Source: Thermoguttaceae bacterium
GTDB lineage: Bacteria; Planctomycetota; Planctomycetia; Pirellulales; Thermoguttaceae
Assembly (NCBI GenBank): GCA_017557195.1
Contig: JAFZAL010000053.1
Span: 1 to 63,977, forward strand
Length of the DNA stretch: 63,977 nt
Direction: 5' to 3'
In this document: positions 25,713-60,135 of the stretch, one piece after another
Position numbering within the stretch: the stretch's first letter is position 1
Layout of the letters: each line of letters opens with the position of its first letter
The notes under the pieces: generated by a model
What the model saw: only the letters and a program-made list of their open reading frames with translations
What the model was told of the DNA's origin: nothing
Databases searched by the model: none
Program-made: the position numbers and the translations under genes

Positions 25713-27653
25713 ATGAGCGAGGAAAACCCGGAAAAAACCCCGGAATCAGATTCCCCTACGCCAGAGACTGCGCCGCTTAAACCAGCGCCGCCGCGTCGCA
25801 AAATTTTAATTGGAACCCAGCGACCGGGAGCTTTAGAGGCTTTCCGTGCAGAAGCTGCAAAGGCTGCTGAAGGTAAGAAAGAAGCGTCGCCCGCTCCCGC
25901 TGCTCAAACCAAACCGGAAACGGTAGAGCAGAAGCCTGTCGTTCAGCCGGAACCGGTTGTTCAAACCAAGCCGGAAGTCGTCGAACAGAAGCCTGAAGTC
26001 AAACCGGAACCGGTTGTTCAAGCTGAGCCGGAAGTCGTCGAACAGAAGGCGGAAGTCAAACCGGAACCGGTTGCTGAAGTCAAGCCGGAAGTCGTCGAAC
26101 AGAAGGCGGAAGTCAAACCGGAGCCGGTTGCTGAAGTCAAGCCGGAAGTCGTCGAGCAGAAGCCGGAAGTTCAGCCTGAACCAAGCGCTCAAGCCAAGCC
26201 TGAACCGACAGATCAAAAGACAGAATCCAAAGACGAATCCGATCGCCGCGATCGACGTGGGAATAAACGCGAACCGAGAGTCAGCAAGGCGCAGCAGATT
26301 CTTGCCGCCGGTCCGGTAGGAAAAGTTTCCAAAATCCCCGTTCCCAACTCTCGAATGCCGTTGCCAGACGAACTTCAAGAGGTATTCGATGCCGTTGTGG
26401 GTCCTTTAGCGGAAGATAACGGTTTTGACGCGGTTCTTGATAACGACACTGTACATAAAGCTGGGGTCGAATTCCAGCAGGACGATAAAGTTGAAGCCAT
26501 CGTTCAGCACATTTCTCGCGAAGACGTCATTCTTGACCTGGGCAACTTTAACCAGGGCGTTGTCTCGCTTCGTCAGTTTGCTGAAACGCCTGAAATTGGA
26601 ACGAAAGTCAAAGTTTCAATCGTTCGATATAACGATGCAGAAGGCTTGTACGAAGTAACTCTGCCATACGCCGCGGCTATTATCGGCGACTGGTCAGAGG
26701 TTCAGGAAGGCATGGTTGTCGACGCTGCCGTTACCGGTCAGAACACCGGCGGTCTGGAATGTGAAGTCGCTCATATTCGCGCCTTCATGCCGGCGGGACA
26801 GGTCAGCATTTATCATCGCGACAACTTCGACGACTTAATCAATACGCACCTGATGGCAGTCGTTCTGGAAGCGAAGCCGGAAAAGCGCAATCTGGTTATC
26901 AGTCACAAGGCGTACGAATTCCGTCAGCAGGAAGCCGAAAAGAAGGAATTCCTCGCCACGATGAAAGAGGGCGACGTTTTCGACGCGGTTGTTCGCAAGA
27001 TTATGCCCTTTGGCTGCTTTGTCGATCTCGGTCACGGCGTTGAAGGTCTGGTTCACATCAGCCGCCTTTCCTGGGGACACGTTACAGATCCCAACGAAGT
27101 CGTTAAAGAGGGCGAGATGATTAAAGTCATGTACCTCAAGACGGACGACAAGGGCAAGCTGAGCTTCTCCCGCCGCGAAACGATGGCAAGTCCATGGGAA
27201 ACCGCGCCGGTCAAGTACGCTGTCAATACGGTTTGCACGGCTAAAATCGTCAAGGTTGAACAGTTTGGCGCGTTTTGCGAACTGGAGCCGGGCGTTGAAG
27301 GTTTGCTTCACATTTCCGAATTGGCTCACCAGCGAGTTGGTCACGTTTCCGACATCGTCAAAATCGGTCAGGAAGTCCAGGTTCAGGTTATTTCCATGGA
27401 TCCGCTGGCGCGCAAAATCGGGCTTTCCATCAAAGCTCTGATTGCTCCTCCGGTTAAGGAAGAATCTGACGAAGACAACCCTGGACATAAGAAAAAGAAA
27501 GAGAATCCGGAAGACCTCGAAGCCAAGCCGCTGGCGAAGAAATATCGCAACAACAAAACCGACAACCTCAAAGGCGGAACGGCTTCCAATTCCGGCTCAA
27601 AATGGGCAACCGATTTCTCAGCGTTGCTGGGAAGCGTCAAAGAAGAAGAGTAA
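25713..27653 (+). CDS. S1-domain RNA-binding protein with Pro/Glu repeat N-terminus (ribosomal protein S1-like)
   Basis: The 646-residue product has a disordered N-terminal third with five to six imperfect 19-residue units (EPVAEVKPEVVEQKAEVKP type, residues ~62-170), then a charged Arg/Asp stretch. About four S1 (OB) domains fill residues ~255-570. The two best are ~420-490 (FGCFVDLGHGVEGLVHIS) and ~505-575 (FGAFCELEPGVEGLLHIS). It probably acts like ribosomal protein S1 in mRNA binding during initiation. The C-terminal tail is basic with KKKK and KKYRNNK. An upstream promoter and leader ORF suggest regulated expression. Confidence 0.85.
   Translation: MSEENPEKTPESDSPTPETAPLKPAPPRRKILIGTQRPGALEAFRAEAAKAAEGKKEASPAPAAQTKPETVEQKPVVQPEPVVQTKPEVVEQKPEVKPEPVVQAEPEVVEQKAEVKPEPVAEVKPEVVEQKAEVKPEPVAEVKPEVVEQKPEVQPEPSAQAKPEPTDQKTESKDESDRRDRRGNKREPRVSKAQQILAAGPVGKVSKIPVPNSRMPLPDELQEVFDAVVGPLAEDNGFDAVLDNDTVHKAGVEFQQDDKVEAIVQHISREDVILDLGNFNQGVVSLRQFAETPEIGTKVKVSIVRYNDAEGLYEVTLPYAAAIIGDWSEVQEGMVVDAAVTGQNTGGLECEVAHIRAFMPAGQVSIYHRDNFDDLINTHLMAVVLEAKPEKRNLVISHKAYEFRQQEAEKKEFLATMKEGDVFDAVVRKIMPFGCFVDLGHGVEGLVHISRLSWGHVTDPNEVVKEGEMIKVMYLKTDDKGKLSFSRRETMASPWETAPVKYAVNTVCTAKIVKVEQFGAFCELEPGVEGLLHISELAHQRVGHVSDIVKIGQEVQVQVISMDPLARKIGLSIKALIAPPVKEESDEDNPGHKKKKENPEDLEAKPLAKKYRNNKTDNLKGGTASNSGSKWATDFSALLGSVKEEE
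25896..26223 (+). repeat. 57-bp tandem repeats in the S1-domain gene
   Basis: The unit encodes 19 residues (EPVxxxKPEVVEQKxEVxP). At least four full and two partial copies are seen, differing mainly by synonymous or conservative changes, with near-identical central copies that suggest recent slippage. Confidence 0.8.
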
Positions 27654-55289: not shown

Positions 55290-55886
55290 ATGAACATCGT
55301 TAAAGGACTTTTTATTATGCTGACAGCTGTTTTTTTGTCCAGTACCGCTGACGCGGCGAATAAAGCAATCGTTGTTTATTTCTCCCACGCCGGCGAGAAT
55401 TATGGCGTTGGGAACGTCGCGGAAGGCAACACGGCGAAAGTCGCCAAAGAGATTGCCCGGCGGCTCAACGCTGACATTTACGAAATCAAAGAAGCCAAGC
55501 CGTATCCGACAAAATATGACGCGTGCGTCGATTTGGCGAAAGAGGAACAGCGGCTCAACGCTCGTCCGGCGATTGCAGGGAATCTGCCGGACTTGTCTTC
55601 CTACAAAGTTATTTTTCTCGGATACCCAAACTGGTGGGGCGACTGCCCGATGATTGTCTATTCTTTCCTGGAGAAAGAAAATATCGACGGCAAAATCATC
55701 GTCCCGTTCTGCACGCACGAGGGGTCTGGACTGGGCGCAACTGCCAGCAATCTACAGAAACATTTCCCCAAGTCGAAAGTCGTCCAGAAAGGTTTGGCGA
55801 TTAAAGGCACAATCGCTCAAAAGGACGCTAAAACAACGGCAAAAGCCGTCGAAACGTGGCTCAAGGCGCTTAAGGCGATTAAGTAA
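55290..55886 (+). CDS. Exported flavodoxin, copy 1
   Basis: The 198-residue protein has a signal peptide (about 1-22, ending STADA) before a flavodoxin domain starting AIVVYFSHAGEN. The GYPNWWGDCPMIVYSFLE segment and FCTHEGSGLG are flavin-binding loops. It is strikingly similar to copy 2 (57819-58415), including the signal. An exported flavodoxin would need FMN and an electron donor outside the cytoplasm; the exported CMD-cupin protein is a candidate partner. GAGAGGA lies 6 nt before ATG. Confidence 0.88.
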   Translation: MNIVKGLFIMLTAVFLSSTADAANKAIVVYFSHAGENYGVGNVAEGNTAKVAKEIARRLNADIYEIKEAKPYPTKYDACVDLAKEEQRLNARPAIAGNLPDLSSYKVIFLGYPNWWGDCPMIVYSFLEKENIDGKIIVPFCTHEGSGLGATASNLQKHFPKSKVVQKGLAIKGTIAQKDAKTTAKAVETWLKALKAIK

Positions 55887-55902: not shown

Positions 55903-55983
55903 TCTCATGCGGAGATCCTCCGCATCTCCGTGCCTCCGCGTGAGATATATCTGCTCAAGTGTATCCGCATCTCCGCGTGAGCT
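55903..55983 (-). repeat. Solo copy of the GxxExxY flank repeat (no gene)
   Basis: Read on the minus strand it runs CTCACGCGGAGATGCGGATA, CACTTGAGCAG, ATCTCACGCGGAGGCACGG, AGATGCGGAGG, then TCTCCGCATGAGAC. The same order flanks the GxxExxY gene at 58906-58975, but no coding part is present here. Confidence 0.8.
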
Positions 55984-55987
55984 TTCC

Positions 55988-57818: not shown

Positions 57819-58415
57819 ATGAACTTCCTCAAAGGACTTTTTGTCGTCTTAACCGTTGCGATGCTGTCCGGTACTGCGGCGGCAGCTGATAAAGCTATTG
57901 TTATTTATTTCTCCCACGCCGGCGAGAACAACGCCGTTGGATACGTCCAGGAAGGCAACACGGCAAAAGTCGCCAAGACGATTGCCCGACGGCTCAACGC
58001 AGATATTTACGAAATCAAAGAAGCCCGACCGTACTCGCCAAAGTTTGAAGCGTGCGTCGGTCAGGCGAAAGAAGAACAGCGGCGCAACGCCCGCCCGGCG
58101 ATTGCGGGACAGCTGCCGGATTTGTCCTCCTACAAAGTTATCTTTATCGGCTACCCGATCTGGTTTGGCGACTGCCCGATGATCATCTATTCGTTCCTGG
58201 AGAAGGAGAATCTCAACGGCAAAATCATCGTCCCGTTCTGCACGCATGAAGGATCTGGATTGGGCAAAACCGCTCAAAATTTGCAGAGACGCTTCCCCCG
58301 CGCGAAAGTCGTCCAGAAAGGTTTGGCGATTAAAGGTACAATCGCCCAAAGAGATCCCAAGATGACCGCAAAAGCCGTTGAAATGTGGCTCAAAGCGCTG
58401 AAGATAGTTAAATAG
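57819..58415 (+). CDS. Exported flavodoxin, copy 2
   Basis: The 198-residue protein matches copy 1 along its whole length, with the same signal peptide plan (ending GTAAA) and flavin loops (FSHAGENNAVGYVQEGN, GYPIWFGDCPMIIYSF, FCTHEGSGLG). Differences are spread evenly, which suggests an old duplication kept under selection. It has its own promoter. AAAGGA lies 7 nt before ATG. Its stop codon TAG runs straight into a heptamer array. Confidence 0.88.
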   Translation: MNFLKGLFVVLTVAMLSGTAAAADKAIVIYFSHAGENNAVGYVQEGNTAKVAKTIARRLNADIYEIKEARPYSPKFEACVGQAKEEQRRNARPAIAGQLPDLSSYKVIFIGYPIWFGDCPMIIYSFLEKENLNGKIIVPFCTHEGSGLGKTAQNLQRRFPRAKVVQKGLAIKGTIAQRDPKMTAKAVEMWLKALKIVK

Positions 58416-58535
58416 GCAAGAGGCAAGAGGCAGTAGGCAGGAGTACCTAGTGCATAGTACTTAGCGCTAGTACGCAAAACGTTCCCCTCACTATGCACTA
58501 CGCACTATGCACTATGCACTCGCAACTATAGGTAC
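58413..58535. repeat. Compound heptamer array
   Basis: It begins at the flavodoxin stop with GGCAAGA and GGCAGTA units, continues with TAGTGCA/TAGTACT units, a centre with AGTACGCAAAACGTTCCCC, then ATGCACT-type units. Two repeat families are joined head to tail. Confidence 0.8.
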
Positions 58536-58570
58536 GCAGAAACCGAATAAGCATTTTTGGAGATCAAACC

Positions 58571-58901: not shown

Positions 58902-59168
58902 CGGAAAAAACTCACGCGGAGACGCAGAGACACTAGAGCAGGTAAATCTCACGCGGAGGCGCGGAGATGCGGAGGATTCAAAATGAGTGAGAATGATATT
59001 ACCAAGGGCTTTTGGATGCCGAGTAGGTAAATCTCACGCGGAGGCGCGGAGATGCGGAGGATTAAAAGTGAGTGAAGCCGAGTGTCGTCGCGCTGGAAAT
59101 GTTCGTTAGAGAGAGGATGCCGAGCAAGTAAATCTCACGCGGAGACGCGGAGATGCGGAGGATTCAAA
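58902..59168 (+). repeat. GxxExxY upstream flank: serial CTCACGCGGAG repeats
   Basis: Three to four units of CTCACGCGGAG-x-GCGGAG-ATGCGGAGGATT precede the gene. Between them are truncated gene starts: 58983-59030, then a piece beginning near 59068 (AAGCCGAGTGTCGTCGCGCT, GGAAATGTTCGTTAGAG) that recurs downstream at about 59645-59705. Confidence 0.85.
58983..59030 (+). pseudogene. Truncated 5' fragment of the GxxExxY gene
   Basis: It reads MSENDITKG then FWMPSR and stops. The first 8 residues equal the start of the intact gene, and the preceding repeat is the same. This is a remnant or an aborted copy. Confidence 0.8.
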
Positions 59169-59570
59169 ATGAGTGAAAACGATATTACCAAGGACATTCT
59201 GGATGCGGCAATAAAGATTCACAAACAGTTTGGACCGGGCATGCTTGAATCGGTATATGAACAGTTGCTTGAGGTGGAATTGACGCGCCGCGGGCACAAG
59301 GTGGAACGTCAAAAGGAAGTGTCATTTGAATATGAAGGCGTAAAGCTGGACAATGCTTTTCGCCTTGATATGCTTGTTGACGACTCCGTTATTGTCGAGT
59401 TGAAGTCAACGGAAAACATGCTGCCCGTGTATCTTAAACAAGTAAAGACCTATCTTGTGGTAACGGGATTGCAGGTTGGCGTCCTCATTAATTTCGGAAT
59501 GAACCATCTTAAAGATGGGTATGCACGAGTAGTTAACGGCTACACCGGCCCCAAACCATCAGAAGAATAA
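59169..59570 (+). CDS. GxxExxY protein (PD-(D/E)XK-like)
   Basis: The 133-residue protein has the name motif at 24-30 (GMLESVY), the metal-site pattern FRLDMLVDDSVIVELKS (D, then E-x-K) and YLKQVKTYL. The fold belongs with PD-(D/E)XK nucleases, but activity is not known. The start is MSENDITKD, at the position where every truncated copy begins; an in-frame upstream ATG (59082) reads through repeat sequence. The last ~19 codons are repeated, progressively degraded, several times downstream. Confidence 0.9.
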   Translation: MSENDITKDILDAAIKIHKQFGPGMLESVYEQLLEVELTRRGHKVERQKEVSFEYEGVKLDNAFRLDMLVDDSVIVELKSTENMLPVYLKQVKTYLVVTGLQVGVLINFGMNHLKDGYARVVNGYTGPKPSEE

Positions 59571-60135
59571 TCCTCCGCGAAGCGGATACACTAGAGCAGG
59601 TAAAACTCACGCGGAGCTGCGGAGAAGCGGAGGATTTAAAATGAGTGAAGTCGAGCTTCGTCGCGCTGGAAATGTTCGTTAGAGAGAGGATGGCGAGCAG
59701 GTAAATCTCCGCGTGAGACAGAAAGATGGGTATTCGCGAGTAGTTAACGGCTACACCGGTTCTAAACCATCAGAAGAATAACCCTCCGCACCTCCGCGAC
59801 TCCGCGTGAGACAGAAACTAAACGCAATGAACCAGCATAAAGATGGGTATACACGGCTACACCGGTCCCAAACCCTCCCAACAATAACCCTCCGCTCCTC
59901 CGCGGCTCCGCGTGAGACATAAAGGAACCGGCTTAAACGCGAGTTTTTAACGGCTACACCGGTCCCAAACCCTCCCAACAATAACCCTCCGCTCCTCCGC
60001 GGCTCCGCGTGAGACATAAAGGAACCGGCTTAAACGCGAGTTTTTAACGGCTACACCGGTTCCAAACCCTCCCAACAATAACCCTCCGCTCCTCCGCGGC
60101 TCCGCGTGAGAATTATCTTTGCGTTCTTTGCGGCT
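59571..60135 (+). repeat. GxxExxY downstream flank with iterated C-terminal fragments
   Basis: The 3' coding end (GGCTACACCGG-x-CCAAACC then a TAA) recurs at about 59725-59781, 59838-59887, 59938-59984 and 60034-60080. Each copy is followed by CCTCCGC repeats ending CTCCGCGTGAGA, the complement of the upstream flank. The last two form a 97-bp direct tandem repeat (59925-60021, 60022-60110). A TTTGCGTTCTTTGCGGC unit (60117-60133) closes the block. Confidence 0.9.

Follow-up and report, generated by a model that had tools for sequence, protein, structure and literature searches.

Why should a small gene be surrounded by several copies of its own ends? The question is raised by a GxxExxY gene in a draft genome of a Thermoguttaceae bacterium, found in the 63,977-nucleotide stretch of DNA that was analysed here (the window). 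The answer we favour, and hold to be probable, is that a GxxExxY gene and its two flanking arms form a miniature mobile element of ~450-500 bp that is RAYT/REPIN-like, with a PD-(D/E)XK enzyme replacing the HUH transposase.

Architecture of the locus and its protein

The window gene is bracketed by inverted arms of ~30 bp built of 8-nt units (CGCGGAG), and is accompanied by extra copies of both of its ends (Table 1). Four plus-strand arms (CTCACGCGG...) lie 5' of the gene, and one displaced plus-strand arm and four minus-strand arms lie 3' of it. The repeat units are located at 58911, 58948, 59033, 59134, and 59606 on the plus strand and at 59792, 59898, 59995, and 60092 on the minus strand. 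With up to 3 mismatches allowed, CTCACGCGGAGNNGCGGAG matches 12 times in the window, compared with 0.11 matches expected. The extra 5'-end copies consist of an arm plus ~35 nt of the gene, and the extra 3'-end copies of ~60 nt of the gene plus an arm.

The initial annotation had described repeat units and a truncated copy of the gene start upstream, at least four copies of the last codons downstream, each with an inverted arm, and a piece beginning with AAGCCGAGTGTCGTCG on both sides. All of these are present: the 3'-end copies start at ~59722, 59828, 59925, and 60022, and the shared piece is found at 59076 and 59648, within a 135-nt pair that is 84% identical. We additionally found that the arm behind the stop codon is truncated and that one 5'-end copy is displaced downstream of the gene.

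Table 1. Positions of the gene, its arms and the copies of its ends in the window.
Feature	Position	Strand	Basis or remark
Solo copy, two tandem arms, away from the gene	55915-55985	-	repeat search
Outermost partial arm	58907-58930	+	repeat family D5
Extra 5'-end copy, arm + truncated gene start	58936-59020	+	repeat family D3; 92% like the true 5' end at 59122
Variant 5'-end copy with the AAGCCGAGTGTCGTCG piece	59021-59121	+	repeat families D3, D4
5' arm of the gene, TCTCACGCGGAGACGCGGAGATGCGGAGGATT	59129-59164	+	adjoins start codon; inverted match to 60080-60115, 86%
GxxExxY gene	59169-59570	+	133 aa, PD-(D/E)XK nuclease family; E27, D67, E77-x-K79 intact
Truncated 3' arm, directly after stop codon	59571-59588	-	sequence
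Displaced variant 5'-end copy	59594-59693	+	repeat family D4; 84% like 59021-59155
3'-end copy 1, last codons (91%) + inverted arm	59722-59811	+	repeat family D2, inverted repeats I5-I6
3'-end copy 2 + inverted arm	59828-59917	+	repeat families D1, D2
Two identical 97-bp units, each 3' end + inverted arm	59853-60046	+	100% identity, tandem array
Last 3'-end copy + outermost inverted arm	60047-60115	+	repeat family D1, inverted repeats I1-I4

The protein matches TIGR04256 (130.4 bits, curated cut-off 35) and PF13366 (128.9 bits, cut-off 22), and residues E27, D67, E77, and K79 are invariant across 67 sequences. Its predicted structure (pLDDT 94, pTM 0.86) is most similar to Cas4 SSO0001 (4ic1, Z 9.4) and the restriction-like protein 3ijm (Z 8.4); the weaker matches to BglII (Z 7.0) and the junction resolvase Hjc (Z 6.9) are in a range that possibly reflects just a common arrangement. 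The modelled fold and the active-site residues thus place the protein in the PD-(D/E)XK nuclease superfamily, with a predicted nuclease activity. A search of the PDB by sequence gave no convincing relative. A phage-borne origin was rejected (2 relatives among 2.9 million viral contigs), as was identity with a defence gene (best PADLOC match Cas4b, E 1e-3).

The possibility that the flank repeat has no further copies in the genome does not hold: ~102 copies of CTCACGCGGAGNNGCGGAG (at most 2 mismatches) are scattered through the draft, and the reversed control has 0. Among the copies away from the gene that were read, mostly the tail GATGTTCGCGAAGTTTTAAA replaces the gene start. The genome encodes three GxxExxY genes. 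One paralogue (L054) has AACACAAAGAA units 5' of the gene and TTCTTTGTG units 3', and the other (L055) has TTCACGCAAAGTTCGCAAAG 5' and its inverse 3'; the arms of both are unlike those of the window gene.

Elsewhere in the window, neighbouring flavodoxin-like genes (55290-55886 and 57819-58415, 81% DNA identity) are a local gene duplication, and a tandem array at 25901-26204 (57-bp unit, 5.3 copies) apparently encodes a Pro/Glu/Lys/Val-rich repeat.

Mirrored arms at GxxExxY genes across bacteria

We compared 80 GxxExxY loci from many phyla, chosen by protein similarity alone. The generic unit GCNNAGNNGCNNAG occurs 748 times per 100 kb on the plus strand within 100 nt before the gene and 588 times per 100 kb on the minus strand within 100 nt after it. 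More than 600 nt from the gene it occurs ~1-9 times per 100 kb, and the flanks are enriched more than 100-fold over the local background. The sequence of the arms varies between loci, yet it is mirrored within each locus: the mean mirroring score is 22.5 for own pairs, compared with 13.3 for re-paired loci, 13.9 for the distal control and 15.7 for the highest of 20000 permutations. A strict arm score of at least 16 is reached by 37% of the protein-picked loci and 64% of a second (paralogue) set, and by 0.9% of 324 neighbouring genes. The typical arm is ~30 nt long, ends ~25 nt before the start codon or begins ~5 nt after the stop codon, and has a unit period that, where clear, is nearly always 8-10 nt. 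The enrichment, mirroring and arm scores bear out the statement in the initial annotation that GxxExxY genes recurrently occur between flanks of this kind.

A complete chromosome (L124) shows the same layout, as do some, although not all, finished plasmid records (L346, L350), and assembly error is therefore excluded as its general cause. For the window itself, the two identical 97-bp units in a 239-contig draft could suggest an artefact, and the number of these units is uncertain in a draft of this kind. However, an equivalent layout is present in the sister species (G351), and recurrence across many phyla and in finished records refutes artefact or chance as the general cause of the pattern, an explanation that we consider extremely improbable.

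Arm type follows the gene lineage. Paralogues that share a genome have an identity of just 52-64%, and no two of them use the same arm (for example, ATTCGTGTT, CATGAAGCA, CGCCGATGAA, AACAGGATA or ACACAGATT units). Protein similarity and arm similarity are correlated across 74 loci (rank correlation 0.26, 0 of 2000 permutations as high), a correlation that partly reflects common descent, i.e. co-inheritance. In a tree of the 74 proteins, based on too few alignment columns for a claim of transfer, phyla are partly clustered but mixed (31 changes, minimum 13). No recent duplication of a GxxExxY gene was seen, which counts against the explanation that we favour. So do the Sphingomonas loci, where only the upstream arm is found. 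The position of the gene in this genus is directly ahead of fabG (e.g. L116, L130, L147, L162, L171, and L347, the last with the gene between fabD and fabG), as if it had been fixed there and had lost its mobility.

Gene-less copies and variation of the unit among relatives

A survey of the phylum covered 294 genomes, 139 of them with a GxxExxY gene, using the solo pattern CRCGCRRAGNCGCRRAG. At least 10 solo copies were detected in 21 of the 139 gene carriers and in none of the 155 others (Fisher p=6e-8, with relatedness ignored, as in all the statistics given here). The 21 copy-rich genomes span many families. The solo copies of one genome (G044), among those read, are near-perfect palindromes of ~95 bp that fold as hairpins with z of -7.6 to -11. 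Many solo copies in two acidobacterial genomes (G324 and G328) are inverted pairs 30-80 bp apart. In 50 named genomes, the median number of CGC-type solo copies is 9 where a gene with the cognate arm is present and 0 otherwise (p=6e-4). For CAC-type copies the difference in the same genomes is not significant (p=0.10), a result that weighs against our explanation. The same is true of a genome (G004, L204-L207) with 75 CGC-type copies, several of them in tail-to-tail pairs ~75 bp apart, and with a single detected GxxExxY gene, whose arms are of a different type; a gene that matches the copies may have been lost or may be unassembled.

An alternative is that the gene is not mobile and that its arms function at the RNA level, as stems that are cut by RNase III or control translation, making the unit harmless in operons. 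This would fit the tight placement of units between operon genes (e.g. fabD/fabG and radA/next gene), as well as the Coxiella intervening sequence, a 428-nt element that contains an S23 gene and is cut out by RNase III (PMC4990558). The arm of the window gene also provides a GGAGG directly 5' of the start codon, a possible ribosome-binding site judging from its sequence. However, ~100 solo copies per genome and palindromes in either arm order are left unexplained, and we regard a purely RNA-based role as quite improbable, although such a role may exist in addition to mobility.

In the genus of G122, 11 genomes were compared at one intergenic site. Four genomes (G122, G217, G294, and G049) have a GxxExxY unit with CACCGCAGAG arms at this site, in three (G295, G296, and G299) it is occupied by another GxxExxY gene, with ACCACAGATT arms, and three (G153, G070, and G297) show the unit in a decayed state. 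In the remaining genome (G298) the flanking genes abut and the unit is absent, which could be a deletion. In G217 the unit occurs twice, the second copy aligning with it over the full length (454 bp, 71%). The inverted ends of the arm-gene-arm unit thus bound the mobile segment, a 454-bp unit that is absent, present or duplicated, and its mobility is well supported. Gene-less derivatives that have lost the middle of the unit are 222 bp, 174 bp, and 96-98 bp long. Several of these are orthologous between species and therefore old, so that the mobility need not be current, again counting against our explanation. A second empty-site case (G265c compared with G226 and G151) is less clean, as ~1 kb is absent, more than the unit. 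No target-site duplication was seen at the junctions examined and none was definable there, the pre-insertion sequence being uncertain and the exact target undefined, a further point against our explanation. Inside the decayed unit of G297 (L260), a small ORF that by eye resembles a GIY-YIG nuclease lies between inverted CATTCCCGCATGCTTTTAGCGGGAATCCAG copies, perhaps a third system of the same plan to judge by this arrangement.

Two different GxxExxY units at one site in congeners could also be the work of a homing-endonuclease-like inserter. The hairpin repeats would then be older, with a host role or moved otherwise, and the flanks of the gene would be the halves of its target. Consistent with this, the repeats are often nested, and without the unit its flanks would form an inverted pair. 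Homing would be expected to leave several near-identical gene copies per genome, whereas paralogues have the low identities (52-64%) given above. Moreover, the two units of the congeners differ in their arms, and in each unit the mirroring goes with the gene it encloses; a target common to both would not produce this. We therefore consider insertion by homing unlikely.

In the genus of the window, the gene occupies the corresponding position in the sister species G351, where there are fewer copies of its ends. A lone arm and a different hairpin are found in G352, and both are missing from G350. These differences indicate that the end copies change fast; meanwhile, dN/dS values (0.11 for the window gene compared with G351, 0.08-0.15 overall) indicate that purifying selection acts on the protein. 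The series of gene ends in the window is a local tandem duplication. The initial annotation had instead proposed a unit that copies itself partially and repeatedly, each copy carrying repeat plus gene end. It is true that repeat and gene-end pieces multiply, as a gene-less array with the same 5' and 3' ends on contig 45 demonstrates. However, the end series arose by local tandem duplication with a count that differs in G351, and the dispersed copies are mostly an arm with different downstream sequence, rather than repeat plus gene end. What varies between relatives is the whole ~450 bp arm-gene-arm segment or its gene-less derivatives.

Candidate mechanism and related systems

The four-helix-bundle genes of TIGR02436, taken as a control family (L287-L316), also have mirrored arms, mostly of 7-nt units, at 63% of 27 loci. 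Because the plan is common to two unrelated small proteins, a need for nuclease activity as such becomes less credible, and the generality of arm-bounded miniature elements more so. This family has no known nuclease domain, so the essential part of the plan may be something other than the nuclease. This observation is also consistent with an explanation in which an unrelated transposase, or errors of replication and repair, move the arm-bounded units and solo hairpins, while the nuclease rides along as a passenger and serves another purpose. Slippage is favoured by tandem units, and the end copies do vary fast. Against it, arm type tracks the protein and every copy-rich genome carries the gene, and we find a passenger role distinctly unlikely.

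Ten heptamer arrays lie in the window (1334, 5828, 7813, 7869, 17523, 30614, 45515, 46327, 58489, and 63633). They look like gene-less copies of TIGR02436-type arms, and a relationship to the heptanucleotide repeats of cyanobacteria is possible. One heptamer hairpin (58415-58540) separates the flavodoxin gene from the gene that follows. It is missing exactly in G352, where 58414 and 58541 abut, and has further copies in the genus of the window. As a candidate for a known RNA family it was rejected, with just a sub-threshold match to a microRNA model.

The closest likeness of the GxxExxY unit as a mobile element is to REPIN/RAYT systems. RAYTs are single-copy, diverged genes, and every one of them has a repeat type to itself (Bertels and Rainey 2011, PMC3116915). 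In both systems a distinct, single-copy gene with its own repeat type stands between short inverted repeats, which are also dispersed as hairpin-forming inverted pairs, and repeat clusters adjoin the gene. They differ in that the RAYT is an HUH Y1 transposase and GxxExxY a PD-(D/E)XK protein, in that GxxExxY arms are tandem 8-10-nt units whereas each REP is one palindrome, and in that the gene-bearing GxxExxY unit is itself present or absent. The GxxExxY system thus works like REPIN/RAYT but is no member of it, because it lacks the HUH transposase. A resemblance to MITEs and their parent insertion sequences lies in the gene-less derivatives (here 96-222 bp), which keep the ends but not the middle. 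Unlike MITEs and insertion sequences, GxxExxY has no known transposase (a single gene of a non-transposase family), no target-site duplication was found, and the full unit is only ~450 bp. The ribosomal intervening sequence is a comparable element of ~430 nt with one small gene, and has been called selfish (PMC4990558), but it encodes an S23/four-helix-bundle protein instead of a nuclease and is located in 23S rRNA.

Rpn/transposase_31 proteins (PF04754), among them the recombination-promoting nuclease RpnA, are likewise small PD-(D/E)XK nucleases, linked to RecA-independent recombination, and rpnC was apparently acquired twice at one site (PMC5350276). The Rpn proteins belong to another Pfam family, and the text consulted mentions no inverted repeats for them.

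By analogy to REPIN/RAYT (PMC3116915) and to RpnA (PMC5350276), we infer a step in which the nuclease acts on its own arms and a copying step by repair synthesis. Each arm of ~30 bp comprises two to four tandem units of 8-10 nt, and every gene lineage has a characteristic arm sequence that is inherited together with the protein. The PD-(D/E)XK protein would recognise its own arms, probably as a hairpin or cruciform, and cleave there; host synthesis and repair would then copy or move the arm-bounded DNA to other intergenic sites. Even where the gene is missing, arms spread or are maintained, in the form of single arms, strong-hairpin inverted pairs and internal-deletion derivatives, and the gene is rarely duplicated in a genome and is maintained by selection. 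The window element has accumulated tandem duplicates of both ends, for which the same repair, or slippage between tandem units, may be the source.

A literature search for GxxExxY and PF13366, with incomplete coverage that makes a prior description elsewhere possible, returned nothing on repeats, and the arm unit sequences searched as text gave no match. The arm-gene-arm elements probably form an apparently undescribed class of miniature mobile DNA. More tentatively, at somewhat short of even confidence, GxxExxY could be a new and widespread minimal mobile class in which a nuclease of ~125 residues alone mobilises tandem-unit arms; the heptamer-arm genes of TIGR02436 would be a second class, and many orphan repeats of bacterial genomes would be the gene-less offspring of such elements. 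If true, this would give a role to a nuclease family with almost no literature. It would also show where the abundant intergenic hairpins (CGCAAAG, CACAGAG, and CACAGATT types) of planctomycetes, cyanobacteria, acidobacteria, and other groups come from. Finally, the REPIN/RAYT lifestyle would have arisen again with an unrelated enzyme, and the rules of such systems would become testable by comparison.
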